A program made the position numbers and the translations under genes. Shown here piece by piece: positions 15,167 through 64,000 of a DNA stretch of 64,000 nt. The notes below the pieces were generated by a model. The model searched no databases. It worked only from the letters and a program-made list of their open reading frames with translations, and was not told the DNA's origin. Every line of letters begins with the position of its first letter. Position 1 is the first letter of the stretch. This DNA is from Rhodoferax ferrireducens T118. GTDB lineage: Bacteria > Pseudomonadota > Gammaproteobacteria > Burkholderiales > Burkholderiaceae_C. The DNA is taken from NCBI RefSeq assembly GCF_000013605.1, contig NC_007908.1, positions 1,674,001 through 1,738,000 on the forward strand, in the 5' to 3' direction.

Positions 15167-16320
15167 AGCTCCTCGATTCTTCGGGCCGGATAACTGTCCC
15201 ACGCCTGGCAGCCGGGACATTGCCAGAAGTGTTGCTTGGCCTCGAAGCCGCAAGCAGCACAACGGTAACGCATGAGCGGCTTGATGGCCTGTTCCAGTGC
15301 GCGTTGAACCTGCGGATGAAATTGCTCGTGTTCGAGTTTTTCACCAGCAAGCCACTTGGCGGCAGCGACCAGCGACGGCTCGCGCTCCAGATGCTGCACA
15401 TACCAGTCACGTGCAGTGGGCGTGGGCCCGCCGTGGCCGGCCTCCAGCAGGACGATGGCATCGAGCACGTCCAGCGAGGGGGAATGCGCGTAAGAGGTCT
15501 TGAGCAAGGTCAGGGCTTCAGGGGCGCGCCCGCAAGCGATGGCGTAGTCGGTCAGTGGTGCTGCGATCAGGGGGGTGGCCGCAGGCGCAGACTGCAAAGA
15601 TCTTTTGAGCAGCAAATAGGCTTCTTCGGGTTGGCCCTGGCGCGCCAACAACTGGGCCAGGTCAATCGGGGGTCGTGCCGCGTCTGGCGCCGTGCTCAGA
15701 GCTTGTTGCAACAAAGAATTGGCTTGTTCAGGCTCTTGGGCAGTGAGGGATTCAGCCGCCTGCTCACACAGGTAATGCGCCAGACGGCCCTGAAAGCTTC
15801 CCTGGTTGGCGTGTTCCAGTTTTTGCGCGATCTGCGCGGCGCGCAGCCAGTCGCGGCTGCGCTCGTAGTTGGCCAGCAGGGCGAGGCGCGCCTGCGCCTC
15901 GAACGGGGTTCCTTCGAGCTTGAGCAAGGCCTCTTCAGAACGGTCGATCAGGCCAGCTTTGAGATAGTCCAGTGCCAATGCGTGCTGCGCACGCTGGCGA
16001 TCAAGCAGGTTCAAGTCGCCACGCGACAACAGATGTTCATGCACGCGCACCGCACGTTCATATTCGCCACGGCGTCGAAACAGGTTGCCCAGCGCAAAGT
16101 GCAGCTCGGACGTGTCAGGGTCGCTTTGGACGGCCTCGATGAAGGCATCAATCGCCTGGTCCTGTTGCTCATTGAGCAAAAAGTTCAAACCCCTGAAGTA
16201 AGCTTTTGGGGCCTGATGGTTTTCAATGCGCAGTTGGCGCAGATCCAGGCGCGAGGCGACCCAGCCCAACACAAAGGCCAGCGGCAGGCCCAGCAGTATC
16301 CAACTCAGGTCAAAGTCCAT
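15163..16320 (-). CDS. lapB: LPS assembly/regulatory protein LapB (YciM)
   Basis: The 385-residue inner-membrane protein regulates LpxC turnover and coordinates LPS assembly. One N-terminal helix (about 7-22) anchors a series of TPR repeats (about 40-310). A C-terminal rubredoxin-like knuckle has the pairs CAAC and CPGC. The length equals E. coli LapB (389). It overlaps lapA by 11 bases and rfaE1 by ATGA, placing LPS quality control and heptose synthesis in one operon. Confidence 0.95.
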   Translation of the reverse strand: MDFDLSWILLGLPLAFVLGWVASRLDLRQLRIENHQAPKAYFRGLNFLLNEQQDQAIDAFIEAVQSDPDTSELHFALGNLFRRRGEYERAVRVHEHLLSRGDLNLLDRQRAQHALALDYLKAGLIDRSEEALLKLEGTPFEAQARLALLANYERSRDWLRAAQIAQKLEHANQGSFQGRLAHYLCEQAAESLTAQEPEQANSLLQQALSTAPDAARPPIDLAQLLARQGQPEEAYLLLKRSLQSAPAATPLIAAPLTDYAIACGRAPEALTLLKTSYAHSPSLDVLDAIVLLEAGHGGPTPTARDWYVQHLEREPSLVAAAKWLAGEKLEHEQFHPQVQRALEQAIKPLMRYRCAACGFEAKQHFWQCPGCQAWDSYPARRIEEL

Positions 16321-56405: not shown

Positions 56406-57491
56406 ATGTTTTTGGAAGTCTCACAACTCAGCGTGGCTTATGCGGGCGCCAGCCAGGCCGCGGTGCGCGAGGTCTCGTTTGGCCTGCATGCCGGCGACAT
56501 CGGTGTGCTGATCGGGCCATCAGGCTGTGGCAAAACCACCTTGCTGCGGGCAGTGGCCGGGCTGGAACCCGTGGCGGGTGGCAGCATCAAGCTCGCCACC
56601 CGCTTGGTGAGCAGTGCCAGCGTCAACGTGGCGCCGCAGGCGCGCCAGGTTGGCATGGTGTTTCAGGACTACGCCTTGTTCCCGCATTTGAATATCGGTC
56701 GCAATGTTGATTTTGGCATTCGTCATCTGCCCCCCAAGGCGCGTGCGCAGCGTGTGGAGGAGGTACTGCAACTGGTCGGGTTGGCGGGCTTTGAGGCGCG
56801 CTTTGCGCATGAGCTCTCGGGGGGGCAGCAGCAGCGTGTGGCACTCGCACGAGCCCTGGCACCCAAGCCGCGCCTGCTGCTGCTCGATGAGCCCTTTTCC
56901 AATCTGGATGTGGACTTGCGCGAGCGCCTGGCGCATGAGGTGCGCACCATCCTGAAGACGGCCAACACCACGGCGCTGTTTGTGACCCACGACCAACTGG
57001 AGGCTTTTGCCATTGGCGACATCATCGGCGTCATGCATGAGGGCCAACTGCACCAATGGGACGACGCCTATACGCTGTATCACCGCCCCGCGTCCCGGTT
57101 TGTAGCCGAGTTCATTGGTCATGGCGTGTTCACGCCGGCCACGCTGCGCGAAGTGAACCAGCAGGTCGTCGTCCACACCGCGCTGGGTGATTTGACGGAC
57201 GTGGCCGAATGCCCGCTACCGAGTGCCTTTGTGGATGGCGCGTGTGATGTGTTGCTGCGCGCCGATGACATCGTGCATGACGACGATGCCCCGGTGAAGG
57301 CAGAAATCATGCGCAAGGCGTTTCGCGGCTCCGAGTTCTTGTACACCCTGCGGCTGGCCAGCGGTGACACCGTCATGGCCCTGGTGCCCAGCCATCACGA
57401 CCATAAGGTGGGTGAGTGGATCGGCATTCGCGTCCAGGTGGAGCACGTGGTCACGTTTCCAAGAAATAAGGATTTGACCGCGACGGCATAA
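56406..57491 (+). CDS. fbpC: Fbp-type iron ABC transporter ATP-binding protein
   Basis: The 361-residue ATPase drives the permease encoded divergently. Walker A is GPSGCGKT (37-44), the signature LSGGQQQR is at 137-144 and Walker B LLLLDEP at 157-163; the H-loop FVTHDQLEA is present. The C-terminal part (about 240-361) is a TOBE-like domain typical of the CUT1/FbpC group. The Q-loop and D-loop (SNLD) are intact. Confidence 0.92.
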   Translation: MFLEVSQLSVAYAGASQAAVREVSFGLHAGDIGVLIGPSGCGKTTLLRAVAGLEPVAGGSIKLATRLVSSASVNVAPQARQVGMVFQDYALFPHLNIGRNVDFGIRHLPPKARAQRVEEVLQLVGLAGFEARFAHELSGGQQQRVALARALAPKPRLLLLDEPFSNLDVDLRERLAHEVRTILKTANTTALFVTHDQLEAFAIGDIIGVMHEGQLHQWDDAYTLYHRPASRFVAEFIGHGVFTPATLREVNQQVVVHTALGDLTDVAECPLPSAFVDGACDVLLRADDIVHDDDAPVKAEIMRKAFRGSEFLYTLRLASGDTVMALVPSHHDHKVGEWIGIRVQVEHVVTFPRNKDLTATA

Positions 57492-57582
57492 TTTTCAAGT
57501 TACACCCTTTACACAAACTCCATAGCATCTGCCAAGGTGCCGGCCTAGAATTTATTTTCTTTCATATCAACAGGAATGCCCC

Positions 57583-58044
57583 GTGAAAATCAGTAAATCA
57601 TCTTTAGCCAAGTGCTTGTTTTCGGCTGCCATGCTGTCTGGACTTGGTGTCATGGCTCAGACCACGGCTGCGCCAACTCCCGCGACGCAGACGGCCCCCA
57701 AGCAAGACTTCGCTACTGACTTGGCAAAGGCAGACCTTGCCAAGCAAGGCATCACCAACCCGACCAGCAGCCAGCTTGCCAGCGCTGTCAAAAGCATTCA
57801 AGACCAACGCGCCAGTGGCCTGGGTTGGGGGCAGATTGCCAATTCCCTGGGCTTGAAGCTGGGTGATGTTGTCAGTGCAGTCAATCGTTCAGGCATGGCT
57901 GAAAGTGCTGGCAAGCCCAGTGCCGCTGGGACTGGCAAAGCCGGCGGTGCCGGTATGTCTGGAAGTGCAGGTGCCTCTGGAAGTGCGGGCGGCATGGGCG
58001 CCGGTCATGGTGGCATGGGTGGCGGTGCTGGGGGCAAGAAGTAA
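57583..58044 (+). CDS. Small secreted Gly/Ala-rich protein
   Basis: The 153-residue product starts at a GTG and has a signal peptide (cleavage near VMAQT). The middle is a helical region with a repeated-looking segment GLGWGQIANSLGLKLGDVVSAV; the C-terminal 50 residues are almost only Gly, Ala, Ser and Met (GSAGGMGAGHGGMGGGAGG). I do not recognise a characterised family, although proteins with the GWGQIA/LGLKLG pattern occur in Betaproteobacteria. It stands alone next to the sigma-factor locus, without the shared promoter motif. Confidence 0.75.
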   Translation: MKISKSSLAKCLFSAAMLSGLGVMAQTTAAPTPATQTAPKQDFATDLAKADLAKQGITNPTSSQLASAVKSIQDQRASGLGWGQIANSLGLKLGDVVSAVNRSGMAESAGKPSAAGTGKAGGAGMSGSAGASGSAGGMGAGHGGMGGGAGGKK

Positions 58045-58176
58045 GCTCTCGTACACGATTTATTGTCTGAGGGCGTTGTCGGCCATGCGCAAGAACCCAG
58101 CCTCGGTGCTGGGTGGAGCGATCAAGTGCCTGCGCGTCGGGGCAGGTTCACTGGACGGCTGTTTCAGGCCGTGTTG

Positions 58177-58911
58177 TCAAATTCCTACGGTCAAATTGAC
58201 CCACGCGTCCGGAAGCCACAGCAGGATTTGAGTCTCCATCCATTTGTCACCGCCCGTCAGAATCGCGACTCCCAGGGCACCGAGCAGTAGTGCGAAGCCG
58301 TGTCGTACCCGTTCAATGCGTGCGAGTACCCAATCTCGTACACGCATGAAGCCACTGCGGGAAGCATAGGCCACCGCCACCAGTGGAATGGCTGCGCCCA
58401 AACCAAAAATGCCGAGCACCAAGCCACCGCGCGCCACCCCACCCTCACTCGCTACCAGCGTCAGGGCTGAGCCCAACAACGGCCCGGAACAGGGACTCCA
58501 CACCAGGCCGAGCACACTTCCCAACAGCAGTGCACCCAACAGCGAGCCACCATCAAGTTGGGTAGATGCCGCGTTGGCCGAACTGGCAATCGGCAACATC
58601 CATTGCGTGAACCGTTCGCCCAAGGCCGGTACCAGCATCACCAGCGCGAAGGCGATCAGCATGACGGCGCCACCCGTGCGCACGGTGTCGCCGTCAATAC
58701 CCAGTGCCGGCCCCAACGCCCCAAGCACTATGCCTATCAGGGCGAATGAGGTCGTCATCCCCACACCCATGGCCACCGGTGCGAAGCGGTTTCCCTGCAA
58801 GGCGCCACCCAATACCAAAGGTAAGAGTGGAAAGACGCAGGGCGACAGAGTGGTCAAACTACCGGCAAACAGGCTCAAGACAACTTGCGGCACGGACAAT
58901 GCGATGGACAT
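58177..58911 (-). CDS. CcdA/DsbD-type transmembrane electron carrier
   Basis: The 244-residue membrane protein has about six to seven helices. The pair of helix-start motifs TTLSPCVFPLLP and WSPCSGPLL each hold one Cys, the arrangement used by CcdA and the DsbD core to pass electrons from cytoplasmic thioredoxin to the periplasm. It follows the thioredoxin-like gene by 12 bases. Together they would form a split DsbD. It is the last gene of the leftward unit that starts with the Cys-rich peptide. Confidence 0.88.
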   Translation of the reverse strand: MSIALSVPQVVLSLFAGSLTTLSPCVFPLLPLVLGGALQGNRFAPVAMGVGMTTSFALIGIVLGALGPALGIDGDTVRTGGAVMLIAFALVMLVPALGERFTQWMLPIASSANAASTQLDGGSLLGALLLGSVLGLVWSPCSGPLLGSALTLVASEGGVARGGLVLGIFGLGAAIPLVAVAYASRSGFMRVRDWVLARIERVRHGFALLLGALGVAILTGGDKWMETQILLWLPDAWVNLTVGI

Positions 58912-58923
58912 GGTTGCGCCTGT

Positions 58924-59304
58924 TCAAAGTGCCGACTTCAACGCAGCGCGAATGCCACCTGGTGAGGTATCGCCGACTACGCGGTAAGTCTCTTTCTCAC
59001 CGTGCAGCACCACCAGTGTGGACTGGGCGCGCACGTTGAAGCGGCGCTTCAGGTCTTTCTCGGTGTCGTAGCTGGCCACCAGTACCGTCAAATCCAGACC
59101 TGCTTCGGATTTCAGGCCTTGCAATACTTTCTCTTGAGCGCGACAAGTCGGGCACCAGTCCGCATGGAAATGCAAAGCCACAGGCTTGCCTGCTTTCTGC
59201 GCCTCTGCCAGCGCAGCCGCAGAGTACGGTTTGACTTCGAGGGCGTGTGACACCATCGCACCGAAGACAAGGAGCGTCGAGAGGACAACTTTTCCTATAG
59301 TCAT
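58924..59304 (-). CDS. Periplasmic thioredoxin-like protein
   Basis: The 126-residue product has a signal peptide (cleavage near SHALE) and a thioredoxin fold with active site CPTC in HADWCPTCRAQE; the strand-turn STLVVLHGEKE follows, without the usual cis-Pro (QS-TL). Its likely partner is the CcdA-like carrier 12 bases downstream, so it probably reduces periplasmic cysteines, possibly those of the peptide encoded at 60138. Confidence 0.87.
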   Translation of the reverse strand: MTIGKVVLSTLLVFGAMVSHALEVKPYSAAALAEAQKAGKPVALHFHADWCPTCRAQEKVLQGLKSEAGLDLTVLVASYDTEKDLKRRFNVRAQSTLVVLHGEKETYRVVGDTSPGGIRAALKSAL

Positions 59305-59357
59305 AAGAACCTTTCAAAAACGTATTTCACAGTCAAATGGCGGCTGGACTTTTTGGG

Positions 59358-60080
59358 TTAACCACGCTGCCGGGTTAACTGCCGCCGAACAGACTCTGCC
59401 TCCAAGGCATCCGTGTCGGCAATCCAGTCGATGGGTATCAAACTCAGCACTTCCAGATCCCGGTCCTGCAAGGCCTGCGCCAGGTTGGATCGCCGCGCCA
59501 GACGTTTGTCGCGTTGGACGAGCAGCTCATGGATCAAGGGGCGATACAAGCGAACAAAGCCCGTCAACCAGCGGCATGATTGTTCATGCCCTTCGATCTC
59601 GCCCATCGCGAACCGATCAACACAAGCCATGGTGGTGGCTGCATCAAGCCAGTGGCCATCAGTGACCCATTGGTTCACCGTGAACAGCCCAACTGGCAGG
59701 CCACGCGCGTCAAGCGAGATGGCAAACAGATGAGTCGGCTCGGTGCGATTCCACCTGGGCTTGCCTGGCTTCAAGTACCGTCTGCGCCCGGTCGCCGTGC
59801 CATGCCAAAACAAGTGCAGATGCCCGTGTTCCTGGTCGCCGTCCCGATGAGAATGGTAGTAAAACTGGGAGCCACGTTGGGTGTCAACCAGGTCGTCCGG
59901 TGGGTAGTGCTCAAACTCAAGCACTTCGCGATTCGCGATCCAGCTTTGGATCAGGGAACCACGCTCCGCTGTCACTGTGACGAACGCCAAGACACTGGCG
60001 CGCGCGCTGCGTAGCACCCTGGCGATCTGCGTGTCGGAAGCAGCGCGCCAATTTCGCCGGAGATGTGTTGAAGCGGTCAT
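59358..60080 (-). CDS. His-rich protein of uncertain family (DUF6969-like)
   Basis: The 240-residue product has no signal peptide or membrane segment. A central motif rich in His and aromatic residues reads FYYHSHRDGDQEHGHLHLFW, which looks like a metal site. THLFAISLDARGLPVGLFTVN and WVTDGHWLD follow. The pattern reminds me of DUF6969, but I cannot confirm it. The ATG at 60080 is one choice; another lies 27 bases upstream. The gene lies 57 bases after the Cys-rich peptide and 53 before the thioredoxin gene, so it probably belongs to that operon. Confidence 0.7.
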   Translation of the reverse strand: MTASTHLRRNWRAASDTQIARVLRSARASVLAFVTVTAERGSLIQSWIANREVLEFEHYPPDDLVDTQRGSQFYYHSHRDGDQEHGHLHLFWHGTATGRRRYLKPGKPRWNRTEPTHLFAISLDARGLPVGLFTVNQWVTDGHWLDAATTMACVDRFAMGEIEGHEQSCRWLTGFVRLYRPLIHELLVQRDKRLARRSNLAQALQDRDLEVLSLIPIDWIADTDALEAESVRRQLTRQRG

Positions 60081-60137
60081 GCTCAAGAATGCAGCGCCGG
60101 TGACCAAGCAGCCACCGGGGAGCGTACGTGAAGAAAA

Positions 60138-60395
60138 CTATGACTTGGCAGCGCAGGCGCCGCATTTGGCTTTCATCTTTTTGGCTTTGGCTTTTGCCGC
60201 ATGTGCCTTGCTGGCCGCGCATTGGGGCTTGGCTGCACCACACTTGGCCTTGCAGGCGCCGCATTTGGCCATGTTGGTCTTGGGGCCGCACTTTGCGCCG
60301 GCGCAACCTGCAGCCATGACATTGCCAGACAGCGCAGCGGCAGTGACCACGGCAGAGGCGATCGTCTTGGCGATTGTGGAGGAGAGATGGTTCAT
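60138..60395 (-). CDS. Secreted Cys-rich peptide (bufferin/HvfA-like candidate)
   Basis: The 85-residue product has a signal peptide (cleavage near VMAAG, about 28-29). The mature ~57 residues hold eight Cys (31, 36, 45, 48, 52, 59, 78, 81), mostly followed by Gly (KCG repeated four times), and abundant Lys and Ala. It resembles the small Cys-rich precursors of metal-binding RiPP systems (bufferins, HvfA), though their typical EGKCG repeat is not exact. CAAGGAC gives a ribosome-binding site. It leads the leftward operon and has the shared promoter motif upstream. Alternatively it is an unmodified metallothionein-like protein. Confidence 0.75.
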   Translation of the reverse strand: MNHLSSTIAKTIASAVVTAAALSGNVMAAGCAGAKCGPKTNMAKCGACKAKCGAAKPQCAASKAHAAKAKAKKMKAKCGACAAKS

Positions 60396-60474
60396 AAAGA
60401 AGTCCTTGAATGGGTGAAGGGTGACATTGGCGAAAAACTCGGAAAGTCAAGTGGAAACGCGACTTTCATGGACA

Positions 60475-60503
60475 TAGTCGTTTGAGTCTTGACAATGCTT
60501 ACA
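60475..60503 (-). promoter_or_regulatory. Predicted ECF-type promoter, leftward (TGTAA-N18-CGACTA)
   Basis: On the minus strand TGTAA (60499-60503), 18 bases, and CGACTA (60475-60480) form a bipartite promoter with about 80 bases to the peptide ATG. The same arrangement occurs in the rightward promoter. The weak match to sigma70 and the presence of an extracytoplasmic-function (ECF-like) sigma gene nearby suggest an alternative-sigma promoter. Confidence 0.65.
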
Positions 60504-60582
60504 CGGTCATCCGGAAATTTGTGAGCGTGCGCGATGGCGGACTCCAACAACGACGTGTTCACGCCAAATTGTCCCGGCGGTG

Positions 60583-60611
60583 TGTAATAAATCCGGTGGT
60601 CGTGGCGACTA
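60583..60611 (+). promoter_or_regulatory. Predicted ECF-type promoter, rightward (TGTAA-N18-CGACTA)
   Basis: TGTAA (60583-60587), 18 bases, and CGACTA (60606-60611) lie 31 bases before the ATG at 60643. The two half-sites and the exact spacing are identical to those of the divergent copy, while the 18 intervening bases differ. Confidence 0.65.
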
Positions 60612-60642
60612 AACCGCATGTCATCAATACAAAAAGAATCCA

Positions 60643-61098
60643 ATGTCCAAAACTGTTCTTATTGCACGCCCGCACACTTTTATCGTCGCCGTCATGAAAC
60701 CTTTCCTGGAGGAAAACGGTTATGCCACCAACAAACTGGAGCACATCAGTGGTCTGCAAAGTCAGTCTGCGGGTGCCGCTGGCGCCGTCATTTCTCTTGC
60801 CTTGTCGTCTTCGATCATTGAGTCTGCAGAAGAGGTATTTCTGAAATTGAAGAGCATGGCGCCTCGGACACCCGTCCTGTTTGCCGCCATGCTGTCGCTG
60901 GAGCAGGCACGTCCTGCGCTGGAGCGCATCGCGAAACACGCAGGGCTCCAGGCCAACATCCTTGGCGTGGAGGCAACATCTGCCGCCGCCGCTCAATTGG
61001 GGCGCCAGGAGACGTTTCTGTATCTCAGCAAAGATGACCTGACATTGCCCGAGCGCCGTGCCACCGCCGCACGTCTGATACAGCGCCATTTCCGGTAG
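60643..61098 (+). CDS. Receiver-like protein of unknown function
   Basis: The 151-residue product has alternating strands and helices like a response-regulator receiver (KTVLIARPHTFIVAVMKPFL at the start, PRTPVLFAAM later), but the acidic pocket and phospho-accepting Asp are not evident; the position usually carrying it lies in GAVISLALSSS. It may be a pseudo-receiver. It has no signal peptide. It is the first gene of the rightward operon, 8 bases before the FAD oxidoreductase. Confidence 0.7.
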   Translation: MSKTVLIARPHTFIVAVMKPFLEENGYATNKLEHISGLQSQSAGAAGAVISLALSSSIIESAEEVFLKLKSMAPRTPVLFAAMLSLEQARPALERIAKHAGLQANILGVEATSAAAAQLGRQETFLYLSKDDLTLPERRATAARLIQRHFR

Positions 61099-61106
61099 GA
61101 ACATTT

Positions 61107-62252
61107 GTGACCAAGAGACTTGTTCTGGTAGGGGGTGGCCACGCGCACTTGTCGGTGCTGCGTGCCCTGGCGAAAAAGCGGCCCGCAGGAATAGATGTTG
61201 TCCTGATCACGCCTTCAAAACATCAGAACTATTCAGGCATGTTGCCCGGCTGGGTTGCCGGGCATTACAGCCAAGCCCAGTGTCGTGTTGACCTCGATCC
61301 GCTGGTTCGGGCGGCCGGTGTCCACCTGGTTCTCGAGCAGATTGTCGGTATGGACGCAGCGCGTCGGTGTGTTGGATTGAGCAATGGTCAGCACCTTGAG
61401 TACGACTTGTTGTCACTCGACGTTGGCAGCGAAACCGACACCTCCTGGCTGGAAACCCTGGGGGACAAGCTTTTGCCAGTGAAGCCGCTGGACAATTTCT
61501 TTGCACGTTGGCCGCACGTTCTTGCGGCAGCCAAGGCTTCGAGGGGCTACAGACTGGTGGTGGTCGGCGGTGGTGCCGCCGGGGTCGAGATGGCTCTGGC
61601 GGTGCAACATGCGTTCACAAGTGCTGGTGTTGACGGCCACGTTGACCTTGTCGCATCCGAGTCCGGGTTGCTACCGGGACACGCCAAGCGTGTTCAGGAT
61701 CGGGTGACGCGGTTCGCCCGGCAGGCCGGGTTGGGCCTGCATTTCTTTCGCGGTGTTGGGTCTGAAGAAGGTGTTCTTTTGTCAGATGGCCGATTGCTGC
61801 GAGCTGACCGCGTCATTGCCGCCACGGGTGCACGAGCACCGGTCTGGCTGGGCATGTCCAGATTGACGTTGGACGAGCATGGCTGCATCCTCGTGGATAA
61901 GTACCATCGCAGTGTGTCGCATCCGAATGTTCTTGCCGCTGGCGACGTTTGCGCCCGCACCGATGCCGTGATGTCACGCTCGGGTGTGCATGCGGTTCGT
62001 GCCGGTCCCATCTTGGGTGACAACCTGATGGCCATACTGAACGGCATTTCATTGCAGTCGTATGTGCCCACGCGCCACTCCCTGTATTGGCTGGCTTGTG
62101 GACCACGCTGTGCTGTGGCCTCCTGGGGCCGGTGGTCGGCTGAAGGACAATGGGTCTGGCGCTGGAAAGACTGGATCGATCGTCGATTCGTCCGGAAATT
62201 TTCTGAAACCACACCCGGTGAGGCGACGCCGATGTTGGAGAACACACCATGA
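61107..62252 (+). CDS. FAD-dependent NDH-2/SelD-N-terminal-type oxidoreductase
   Basis: The 381-residue flavoprotein starts at GTG with TAGGAA just before it. The FAD-binding motif is VGGGHAHLSVLR (8-19) with YSGMLPGWVAGHY; the NAD(P)H Rossmann motif is VVVGGGAAGVEMAL. The second FAD contact reads NVLAAGDVCAR. The N-terminal GGGHAH and ITPSKHQNYSGMLPG match the group of pyridine nucleotide-disulfide oxidoreductases that is often fused to selenophosphate synthetase; here there is no SelD. Its electron acceptor is unknown. The stop overlaps the next ORF by ATGA. Confidence 0.85.
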   Translation: MTKRLVLVGGGHAHLSVLRALAKKRPAGIDVVLITPSKHQNYSGMLPGWVAGHYSQAQCRVDLDPLVRAAGVHLVLEQIVGMDAARRCVGLSNGQHLEYDLLSLDVGSETDTSWLETLGDKLLPVKPLDNFFARWPHVLAAAKASRGYRLVVVGGGAAGVEMALAVQHAFTSAGVDGHVDLVASESGLLPGHAKRVQDRVTRFARQAGLGLHFFRGVGSEEGVLLSDGRLLRADRVIAATGARAPVWLGMSRLTLDEHGCILVDKYHRSVSHPNVLAAGDVCARTDAVMSRSGVHAVRAGPILGDNLMAILNGISLQSYVPTRHSLYWLACGPRCAVASWGRWSAEGQWVWRWKDWIDRRFVRKFSETTPGEATPMLENTP

Positions 62253-62386
62253 CATGGTTCAAACAAGCCGGCAATTGGCTTGGAAACGCACAGCCTGTTT
62301 CGGTCGAGGCAACGTCCCGGCATCTGCTGGCGAGCCTGCTGGCGAGCCTGCTGGCGACTGCAGTCTCACCCCATCGGAGCCATTGA
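62249..62386 (+). CDS. Possible 45-residue ORF in the sigma-factor operon
   Basis: The ATG at 62249 overlaps the FAD oxidoreductase stop (ATGA), and the TGA at 62384-62386 overlaps the next start (TGATG), which would fit translational coupling on both sides. The product begins MTWFKQAGNWLG and has a hydrophobic Leu/Ala run from a tandem repeat (LLASLLASLLA), perhaps a small membrane peptide. No relatives are known to me; it could also be just a coupling spacer. Confidence 0.4.
   Translation: MTWFKQAGNWLGNAQPVSVEATSRHLLASLLASLLATAVSPHRSH
62324..62359. repeat. 12-bp tandem repeat, three units
   Basis: CTGCTGGCGAGC occurs twice exactly and a third time with the last two bases changed. In frame it encodes the LLAS repeats of the 45-residue ORF. 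Confidence 0.9.
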
Positions 62387-62610
62387 TGAGGTCGCTCTTC
62401 CAATTCGCCTGCTCTGGCAAGATTGTCAAAAATTCGCTGCGGATCGCCGTGGTGGTGGGCAGCATTCTCAACCTTGTCAACCAGGGCAGTGCCATCCTGG
62501 CGGGCACAGGCATTTCGTGGGTTCACGTGTCGTTGAATTACTTGGTGCCCTACTGCGTGGCAAGTTACAGCGCAGCCAGAAACGAAATGACGCCACGAGG
62601 AAATCAATAA
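62386..62610 (+). CDS. NrtS-like small membrane protein (nitrate/nitrite transporter family)
   Basis: The 74-residue protein begins MRSLFQFACSGKIVKNSLRI and has two hydrophobic segments (about 18-43 and 45-63) with ILNLVNQGSAIL and VSLNYLVPYCVASYSA. These match the NrtS family, first described as a nitrate transporter of marine cyanobacteria. The ATG overlaps the preceding stop (TGATG) and the TAA overlaps the sigma-factor start (TAATG). Whether it moves nitrate here is unknown; the operon context suggests stress rather than nutrition. Confidence 0.75.
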   Translation: MRSLFQFACSGKIVKNSLRIAVVVGSILNLVNQGSAILAGTGISWVHVSLNYLVPYCVASYSAARNEMTPRGNQ

Positions 62611-63236
62611 TGGACGCTTTGACAAACGAAGGCATGAAATCAGATGCGTCCGAAGCATCGATCTTGTCTGACACGGCATTTTTGAATGACTTGCGCCGTC
62701 AGATGGTGAAGTTTGCGACGCTGCAGCTCTCCAATAGCCACGCTGCAGAGGATGCGGTGCAGGAGGCACTCATCGGAGCGTTGAAAAATGCCCAGTCTTT
62801 CGCCGGGCGAGCCGCATTGAAAACCTGGGTATTTGCCATTTTGCGTAACAAGATTGCCGATGTCTTGCGGCAGAAAAAACGCATGGTCGAGGCCAGCAGT
62901 TTGCTCCGGGAAGACGAAGAGGGTGAGGACTTCTCTGAATTGTTTGATAAAAAAGGCTTTTGGCAATCCGATGAAAAGCCAGCCTCATGGGGCAATCCGC
63001 AAGATTCCTTGCATCAGAACCAGTTCTGGAAAGTGTTCGAGATTTGTTTGGAGGGCTTGCCCGGCAACCAGGCCAGGGTGTTCATGATGAAAGAATTCGT
63101 CGAATTGGAGGCCAATGAAATTTGCACTGCCGTCGGAATCACCACCACCAACCTGAATGTGATGCTGCACCGCTCCCGCCTGCGTCTGCGCGAGTGTCTT
63201 GAAAACAATTGGTTTCTGAAGGGAGAACACGCATGA
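62610..63236 (+). CDS. ECF-like sigma-70 family factor (Sig70_famx1-type)
   Basis: The 208-residue sigma factor has regions 2 and 4 only. Region 2 covers about 20-100 (AEDAVQEALIGALKN and RAALKTWVFAILRNKIADVLR). Region 4 ends with VGITTTNLNVMLHRSRLRLRE as helix-turn-helix. The linker holds a DKKGFWQSDEKP segment typical of the TIGR02943 group (my recollection of the family; not checked). The ATG overlaps the NrtS-like stop, and the stop overlaps the anti-sigma-like gene. It probably recognises the TGTAA-N18-CGACTA motif upstream of its own operon. Confidence 0.88.
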   Translation: MDALTNEGMKSDASEASILSDTAFLNDLRRQMVKFATLQLSNSHAAEDAVQEALIGALKNAQSFAGRAALKTWVFAILRNKIADVLRQKKRMVEASSLLREDEEGEDFSELFDKKGFWQSDEKPASWGNPQDSLHQNQFWKVFEICLEGLPGNQARVFMMKEFVELEANEICTAVGITTTNLNVMLHRSRLRLRECLENNWFLKGEHA

Positions 63237-63430
63237 TGAACTGTCAGCAGGCCACAATGCTGATCTCGGAATCGCAGGAGCGAGCCTTATCTTTGCCGGA
63301 AAAAATGAACTTGAAGCTGCACGTGATGATGTGCTCGGGTTGCAGGAACTTCAGCTTGCAAGTGCCGTTTCTCGGCAAGGCCATGCGTGCCTATGCCAGC
63401 GGGAAAGACGAGGAATCCAAGAAAAAATGA
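63233..63430 (+). CDS. Zinc-finger (zf-HC2-like) anti-sigma-like protein
   Basis: The 65-residue product has an N-terminal Cys4 (NCQQ) and the motif LKLHVMMCSGC, the His-x3-Cys-x2-Cys zinc site of zf-HC2/ZAS proteins. There is no membrane segment, so it is a minimal cytoplasmic sensor likely to bind and hold the sigma factor. It overlaps the sigma gene (ATGA, 63233-63236). Confidence 0.85.
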   Translation: MMNCQQATMLISESQERALSLPEKMNLKLHVMMCSGCRNFSLQVPFLGKAMRAYASGKDEESKKK

Positions 63431-63493
63431 ACCCTGGATTCAACCGGTCGATGCGATTGCCTGGGGGCTGACTCCAAACAACTGCTCGATGTG

Positions 63494-64000
63494 TTACTCG
63501 CAACGCCGGGCGATCCAGTGATCCAATGACAGCTTGCCAGGTCCGCGCACCATCAGGTACAGCAGCACGGCGGCCCAGGTGCCGTGGGTGGGGTAGGCAT
63601 CGGGATAGACAAACAACTGAATGGTCATTGTCATGCCCAGCAGCGCCAACGCCGACAGGCGGGTGGCCAAGCCGAGCAGGATCAGAACAGGGAAAAGGTG
63701 CTCTGCTGTCGCCGCCAGGGTGGCCGCAATTTCAGGCGGAACTAGCGGCAAATGGTATTCATCCCTGAAAAGGTCTACCACCGAGTCCGACAGGCGCGGC
63801 CAGCCCAGGGTGAACTCCCGATTGACGATGTCTACGGCAAAGCCCTGTATCTTGGTCTCGCCAGACTTCCAGAACACCGCGGCGATGGAGAAACGCGCCA
63901 CGAACGCCAGCAGTGTGTTGGGGATGTGGGTGCAGATGCTGATAAACCGGCGAATCAGGCCGGCGATCAGCCCGGCGTCGGCAGGCGCGGATGCGCTCAA
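63494..64000 (-). CDS. DoxX-family membrane protein (5' end at or beyond window edge)
   Basis: The visible 168 residues have about four helices, with the family pattern FVARFSIAAVFWKSGETKI near the start and ATAEHLFPVLILLGLATRLSALALLGM later. A possible TTG start lies at the very edge, but the true start may be beyond it. DoxX proteins end many bufferin/Gig-type loci (there called BufD/GigD or HvfD). The gene converges on the anti-sigma gene, so the rest of its operon would lie to the right of the window. Confidence 0.87.
   Translation of the reverse strand: MSASAPADAGLIAGLIRRFISICTHIPNTLLAFVARFSIAAVFWKSGETKIQGFAVDIVNREFTLGWPRLSDSVVDLFRDEYHLPLVPPEIAATLAATAEHLFPVLILLGLATRLSALALLGMTMTIQLFVYPDAYPTHGTWAAVLLYLMVRGPGKLSLDHWIARRCE

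Follow-up and report, generated by a model that had tools for sequence, protein, structure and literature searches.

The closest described counterparts of the locus reported here are ECF sigma factors of Neisseria, Haemophilus and Caulobacter; statements on them, here and below, follow the accessible parts of the cited articles. Neisseria meningitidis sigma-E recognizes the consensus GTMAGBWTT / CGTCTAAH with a 12-13 nt spacer and controls its own operon, and both the ZAS cysteines and Cys4 are essential for the activity of its anti-sigma (PMC2893595). The ZAS motif is defined as C/H-X23-26-H-X3-C-X2-C (PMC7907618). Haemophilus RpoE2 is reported to respond to HOCl and to control msrAB and a DoxX operon (PMC7907618). 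Oxidative stimuli left the expression of neisserial sigma-E unchanged (PMC2893595) while H2O2 is cited as a Neisseria inducer (PMC7907618), so that the two articles differ on the inducing signal even for Neisseria. For Caulobacter SigF and other ECF16 sigmas the promoter is given as GTAACC-N16-CGAA (PMC3511200) or (T/C)GTAAC-N17-CGAA (PMC8315932). Buf1 clusters contain sigma factor genes (PMC12452194), and some classes of peptide precursor are described as having Lys-Cys repeats or multiple Cys-Lys motifs (PMC13097082).

Two divergent sites and the operons that they face

The window is the whole stretch of DNA analysed (64 kb, C2:1674001-1738000, from a genome of 4.97 Mb). Its features of interest are the following, with transcription units as suggested by gene order and spacing:

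58177..58911, minus strand: DsbD-type transmembrane electron carrier (Pfam PF02683)
58924..59304, minus strand: thioredoxin-like protein (Pfam PF00085)
59358..60107, minus strand: DUF6969 protein (Pfam PF22308, 203 bits), assigned to the Cys-rich peptide operon by spacing
60138..60395, minus strand: 85-aa Cys-rich peptide, by eye with several KCG motifs and a start resembling a signal peptide
60475..60503, minus strand: putative promoter site of the Cys-rich peptide operon, TGTAA-N18-CGACTA (-35 at 60499-60503, -10 at 60475-60480)
60583..60611, plus strand: putative promoter site of the sigma-factor operon, TGTAA-N18-CGACTA (-35 at 60583-60587, -10 at 60606-60611)
60643..61098, plus strand: 151-aa protein (p151), first gene of the sigma operon, from a family without a name
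61107..62252, plus strand: FAD pyridine-nucleotide oxidoreductase (TIGR03169, 346.3 bits, cut-off 310)
62386..62610, plus strand: NrtS-like small protein (NF038050, 41.7 bits, cut-off 25)
62610..63236, plus strand: ECF sigma factor (PRK12544, 356 bits, cut-off 287; TIGR02943, 247.7 bits, cut-off 162.2)
63233..63430, plus strand: 65-aa zinc-finger (ZAS) anti-sigma (NF052368, 73.3 bits, cut-off 50; Pfam zf-HC2)
63494..64000, minus strand: DoxX protein (HvfX-like), 3' end of a bufferin operon (Pfam DoxX; NF050144, 49.4 bits, below the cut-off of 80)

TGTAA-N18-CGACTA is found letter for letter twice in the window and nowhere else in it, both copies facing outwards from the gap between the divergent operons. 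The preliminary description had singled out this identical pair of half-sites, with unrelated spacers and at a plausible distance before the first gene of each operon, and the analysis agrees on all these points. The mean count per window expected by chance is 0.01, with a maximum of 1 in 100 dinucleotide shuffles and no shuffle with two; the spacers are identical at 3 of 18 positions; and the end of CGACTA is spaced by 79 nt from the ATG of the Cys-rich peptide (60395) on the left and by 31 nt from that of p151 (60643) on the right. Sigma-70 promoters number 2 (1.7 in shuffles) and terminators 10 (6.0 in shuffles), counts that carry no information. A search of positions 57000-64000 returned no Rfam match.

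The sigma factor carries Sigma70_r2 and Sigma70_r4_2 and its scores place it above the cut-offs of the ECF families TIGR02943 and PRK12544. The 65-aa protein encoded next to it displays the ZAS motif as C4-X25-H30-X3-C34-X2-C37. We consider it about 85% probable that RNA polymerase carrying this sigma factor reads the two sites as divergent promoters; the sigma factor would be held by the ZAS anti-sigma and released under stress. The assignment is built on what can be read from the DNA: the sites, their positions and conservation, the protein families and the anti-sigma motif.

Neither the Cys-rich peptide nor p151 has a match in Pfam or NCBIfam. The former has 52 relatives at E <= 0.001 (its own sequence included), few of them named and those as "hypothetical", and the latter 114, one of which matches PF03709. 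The family of the flavoprotein (61107..62252) is found elsewhere fused to SelD. The start codon of the DUF6969 gene is uncertain (an alternative ATG is at 60080), and a short plus-strand frame (62249-62388) overlaps, by eye, the flavoprotein stop codon and extends to the start of the NrtS-like gene. The remainder of the bufferin operon (MNIO, DUF2063, DUF2282 and an N17 site) lies just past the window at C2:1738005-1740206.

Exact sites across the genome

An exact search of the whole genome for TGTAA-N(16-19)-CGACTA yielded six sites, with spacers of 17 or 18 nt exclusively. All six lie between 1734475 and 1753075, a span of 18.6 kb, outside assigned genes and 31-162 nt 5' of a start codon. 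Their targets, with the spacer and the gap to the start codon, are:

(a) Cys-rich peptide, DUF6969, thioredoxin, DsbD: N18, 79 nt
(b) 151-aa protein, TIGR03169 flavoprotein, NrtS, sigma, anti-sigma: N18, 31 nt
(c) DUF2282 bufferin, MNIO, DUF2063, DoxX (bufferin/MNIO RiPP operon): N17, 85 nt
(d) ArsS (TIGR04167, 451 bits) and ArsM-like methyltransferase: N17, 162 nt
(e) SenB (TIGR04348, 470 bits) and flavoprotein-SelD fusion (TIGR00476, 297 bits): N18, 41 nt
(f) VTT-domain (TVP38-type)/FAD oxidoreductase fusion (PF09335 and PF07992): N18, 57 nt

The best NCBIfam score of the ArsM-like methyltransferase in (d) is under the cut-off. The preliminary description had further suggested that the local sigma factor drives both window operons as one regulon. 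That link is supported by the conserved sites, and the regulon suggested by this search is larger than the two operons then proposed.

All six sites are oriented the same way with respect to the start of their gene. A bipartite motif taken alone would probably not distinguish a promoter from the operator of a DNA-binding repressor or activator, and on that reading the half-sites would not be -35/-10 elements. The common orientation speaks against an operator, and so do the half-sites themselves, neither of which repeats the other. Furthermore, spacing and most letters fit the consensus deduced from sigma-E-dependent genes in the accessible account (PMC2893595): rewritten, the neisserial consensus becomes TGTAA-N(17-18)-CGTCTA, which matches the sites here in spacing and -35 core and differs by one -10 letter (CGTCTA instead of CGACTA). 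An operator is a very improbable alternative to promoters read by the sigma factor. The CGTCTA variant of the site is absent from this genome.

Chance resemblance would find some support in raw numbers. The genome count is not enriched (six exact sites versus 10 for the backward pattern), one-mismatch counts are far under those of the backward control (12 versus 91 and 18 versus 115), and a sample of the class holds exact matches in 145 of 274 genomes. Among the 24 one-mismatch sites of the genome (8 N18, 16 N17), 20 fall inside a frame longer than 100 codons on either strand; at C2:878232, outside such frames, a clear target was not seen by eye. Set against these counts are the clustering of the six exact sites, for which six random points in so short a span give p ~4e-12 as a post hoc figure, and the conservation upstream of orthologues described in the next section. 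Because of clustering and conservation taken together, chance was rejected and its residual probability is close to negligible.

Just right of the window end, a selenium/arsenic island (C2:1738005-1757005; L006, L007) encodes SenA, SenB, the SelD fusion, EgtD, ArsS, the ArsM-like methyltransferase and the VTT-FAD oxidoreductase, together with a putative selenate ABC transporter (TIGR04553), a family-2 glycosyltransferase and a DUF2064 protein. A 158-aa frame directly 5' of EgtD (L006:3305-3781, plus strand) corresponds to the C-terminal part of glutathione reductase only and looks like a remnant. The stretch L006:15458-16060 holds a gene for a MerR-family regulator and, between this gene and the VTT-FAD gene, a frame that may be a MerC remnant; the N18 site overlaps the end of this frame.

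Conservation of the sites in relatives

The sigma protein scan gave 99 relatives, from which 80 loci belonging to named genomes were kept. The best relatives are mostly from Rhodoferax and other Comamonadaceae/Burkholderiales, followed by Oxalobacteraceae, Pseudogulbenkiania and Microbulbifer. When spacings of 12-24 were tried on the 19 best, Rhodoferax-type loci (L016-L034), exact matches appeared at N17 (7) and N18 (19) and at no other spacing. The next 12 loci hold 25 exact matches, all N18 (15 distinct, as three loci share one map), 27 further loci hold 7 N17, 5 N18 and 1 N20, and the 22 most distant hold 1 N17. The rigid N18 spacing of the preliminary description is accordingly amended to 17 or 18; a strict N18 is ruled out, N17 serving the same BUF gene in other species. 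Three Pseudogulbenkiania subflava contigs (L044, L045, L046) carry one gene map with the same sites over 20 kb, perhaps by duplication in the assembly.

The 250 nt upstream of genes were compared at 56 loci (L016-L073 without L045 and L046, repeats of L044; the distant sigmas of L074-L095 were left out), taking one best gene copy per locus; the set includes near relatives and two loci from one MAG. The preliminary description had named lack of conservation upstream of orthologous operons as an observation that would speak against it, and no such lack was found. With at most one mismatch, the site precedes every one of the 17 sigma operons in which p151 or the flavoprotein comes first (7 exact), 17 of 18 BUF genes (12 exact) and each of the 12 Cys-rich peptide genes (10 exact), two of which (L070, L073) are just 30-37% identical. 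None of 126 operon-internal control genes has it (0/17, 0/20, 0/11, 0/56, 0/22), and 60 letter-permuted patterns gave a mean of 0-0.23 matches per set. In a dyad count made without supplying the motif, TGTAA-18-CGAC came out on top (34 of 47 regions). CGAC forms the core of the -10 element, the two last letters varying among TA, TG, TC, TT, CA and AG.

Conservation is weaker for ArsS (2/8), ArsM (2/5) and the VTT/FAD genes (2/8), at most one mismatch being allowed. Sigma genes for which no p151 or flavoprotein leader with a complete start was found have the site (at most one mismatch) in 8 of 39 cases and lack it within 250 nt in 31 of 39; some of these loci show TGTAA-N18-CGAC with a diverged end, e.g., CGACAG. 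In an alignment of six divergent gaps the half-sites are invariant, but those loci were chosen for having two exact sites and the invariance is not evidence.

The association between sigma factor and site was examined in 100 genomes, each searched both for the sigma and for exact N17/N18 matches, 60 from the genus (own included) and 40 from other families of the order. In the genus, a close sigma (E < 1e-60) occurs in 16 genomes, 15 of which have an exact site, against 10 of the remaining 44 (Fisher p 8e-7, a value that ignores relatedness and incomplete assemblies and uses a sigma threshold set post hoc). Those 10 genomes bear on the alternative that the sites are promoters of another or of several ECF sigma factors, the local one being just one reader: exact sites occur in 6 of 12 genus genomes whose only such sigma is 43-48% identical and in 4 of 32 with neither. 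We regard this alternative as unlikely, given that 15 of the 16 genus genomes encoding the close sigma also have the site and that the window's genome has a single close sigma of this type (self E 1.3e-137, next hit 1.9e-8). Outside the genus, since 27 of the 40 order genomes have an exact N17/N18 match and just one has a sigma below E 1e-60, the bare pattern is not specific and is either background or read by related sigmas. One trap for motif scans is an exact match inside a sigma gene (L171:4541-4568), where it probably represents codons for conserved residues; coordinates suggest similar matches in G087 and G091.

Other genes behind sites were found in relatives at loci fetched for holding a site or a sigma, a selection that provides no denominator. 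They include VTT/FAD oxidoreductases, arsS, an arsM/arsS-relative cluster, thioredoxin-DsbD genes, msrP (NF003767, 479.7 bits in L114; L125, L130, L151 and L161 alike by first residues) and the gene of an ABC-transporter binding protein (in L136, with 550.5 bits to NF008633; by eye also in L117 and L132). In L040 the site precedes an MTA-phosphorylase-like gene that is partial and under family cut-offs. In three related genomes a conserved N18 site (L018:17558-17586, L021:20373-20401, L124:3293-3321) is located 26 nt before a 3-hydroxybutyrate dehydrogenase gene (family TIGR01963, tested for L018 only). L018 also encodes a protein in which many NPCAAK repeats surround a cytochrome-c domain (15529-16209, minus strand; SoxA/TsdA type, PF21342), with a similar gene in L021; it belongs to no NCBIfam family and has TGTAA-N18-CGTCTA upstream.

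SenB scored over the cut-off in 28 genomes, of which 27 were examined (own and 26 fetched loci; G011 was left out, its match being at a contig edge), and at least one of the fetched loci (L198) stops at the gene, with the promoter outside view. The exact site is present at 2 of the 27 senB loci, those of the window's genome and of G050, and SenB was rejected as a conserved regulon member. In G050 the site is 66 nt before an egtD-like gene leading to senB. In G097 a selD-like gene follows a site with one mismatch. In G042 (L182) a sigma/anti-sigma pair directly adjoins egtD-senA-senB-selD; the sigma gene has a one-mismatch site upstream, senB none.

A proposed regulon and its relation to described systems

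In the mechanism that we propose, the 65-aa zinc-binding anti-sigma (63233-63430) would sequester the sigma factor at rest. An oxidant or a thiophilic metal would oxidise its zinc-thiol centre or displace the zinc, releasing the sigma factor. The freed sigma would then act, presumably by direct binding, on its own operon (plus-strand site), on the Cys-rich peptide/DUF6969/thioredoxin/DsbD operon (minus-strand site) and, in the same 18.6 kb, on the bufferin RiPP operon, arsS-arsM, senB-selD and the VTT-domain/FAD oxidoreductase. The inducing signal is probably oxidants or soft metals acting through the thiol/zinc switch, and protection of the cell envelope may be the joint role of the regulon.

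A wider and tentative reading, with odds somewhat against it, is that one ECF switch commands three soft-metal/metalloid chemistries: bufferin and Cys-rich peptide, arsenosugar (ArsS/ArsM) and selenium sugar/selenoneine (SenB/SelD). The Cys-rich peptide might then be a precursor of a new kind that binds metal and has its gene away from that of its MNIO; it would be a second, unlinked peptide (with KCG repeats) in addition to the copper-binding bufferin RiPP, served by the thioredoxin-DsbD relay. Selenoneine might be produced when needed, as a product of envelope stress.

The sigma class, anti-sigma class, promoter architecture and control of a DoxX/DUF2063 operon are of kinds already known. 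What appears new is the extension of the targets to the Cys-rich peptide, to arsenosugar genes and, in this genome, to selenoneine genes, the senB link being poorly conserved; no report of the Cys-rich peptide/DsbD operon, arsenosugar or selenoneine genes as sigma targets was found among the open-access literature matches listed. With this work a little-studied sigma family, which here extends over Burkholderiales and marine gammaproteobacteria, gains a regulon that can be tested. The regulon would tie four proteins without an assigned function (DUF6969, the Cys-rich peptide, the 151-aa protein and the TIGR03169 flavoprotein) to a soft-metal/oxidant response, and it offers a hypothesis for when arsenosugar genes switch on and, for one species at least, selenoneine genes as well. 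The same switch before genes for a copper-binding peptide, an arsenic sugar and a selenium compound suggests one common stress signal.

A regulon of the Neisseria sigma-E/H. influenzae RpoE2 type (own operon plus a DUF2063/DoxX bufferin-type operon) is recovered here as conserved sites only; the Neisseria operon has a DUF692 gene. The Neisseria and Haemophilus sigmas were compared by published descriptions.

By eye, the Cys-rich peptide resembles the Lys-Cys-repeat/Cys-Lys precursor classes as outlined in the accessible text of PMC13097082. Caulobacter SigF/ECF16 shares with the present system a response to metals or oxidants, proposed here, and a GTAAC-type -35 resembling the site. However, in the portion of PMC8315932 available ECF16 has a CGAA -10 element and a six-helix DUF1109 membrane anti-sigma, unlike the CGACTA and the small zinc finger found here. 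Assignment to ECF16 was rejected, the anti-sigma being a 65-aa zf-HC2 protein and the -10 CGACTA.

Neisseria meningitidis sigma-E (NMB2144) is followed directly by the small ZAS anti-sigma MseR (NMB2145), an arrangement like the one here, and the essential Cys at position 4 of the neisserial protein (PMC2893595) has its equivalent in Cys4 of the 65-aa protein. The sigma-E regulon is reported as small (own operon, msrA/msrB and few more), and in the accessible part of that account neither arsenosugar nor selenoneine genes nor a Cys-rich peptide/DsbD operon are among its targets (PMC2893595). For H. influenzae RpoE2 the available text reports very limited autoregulation, gives no promoter consensus and names other targets different from those here (PMC7907618). 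RpoE2 is an ECF group 13 factor whose short ZAS anti-sigma HrsE (67 aa) is of the kind encoded here, and it controls a DoxX/DUF operon together with methionine sulfoxide reductases (PMC7907618), to which the site before msrP in one relative of the present system (L114) corresponds.
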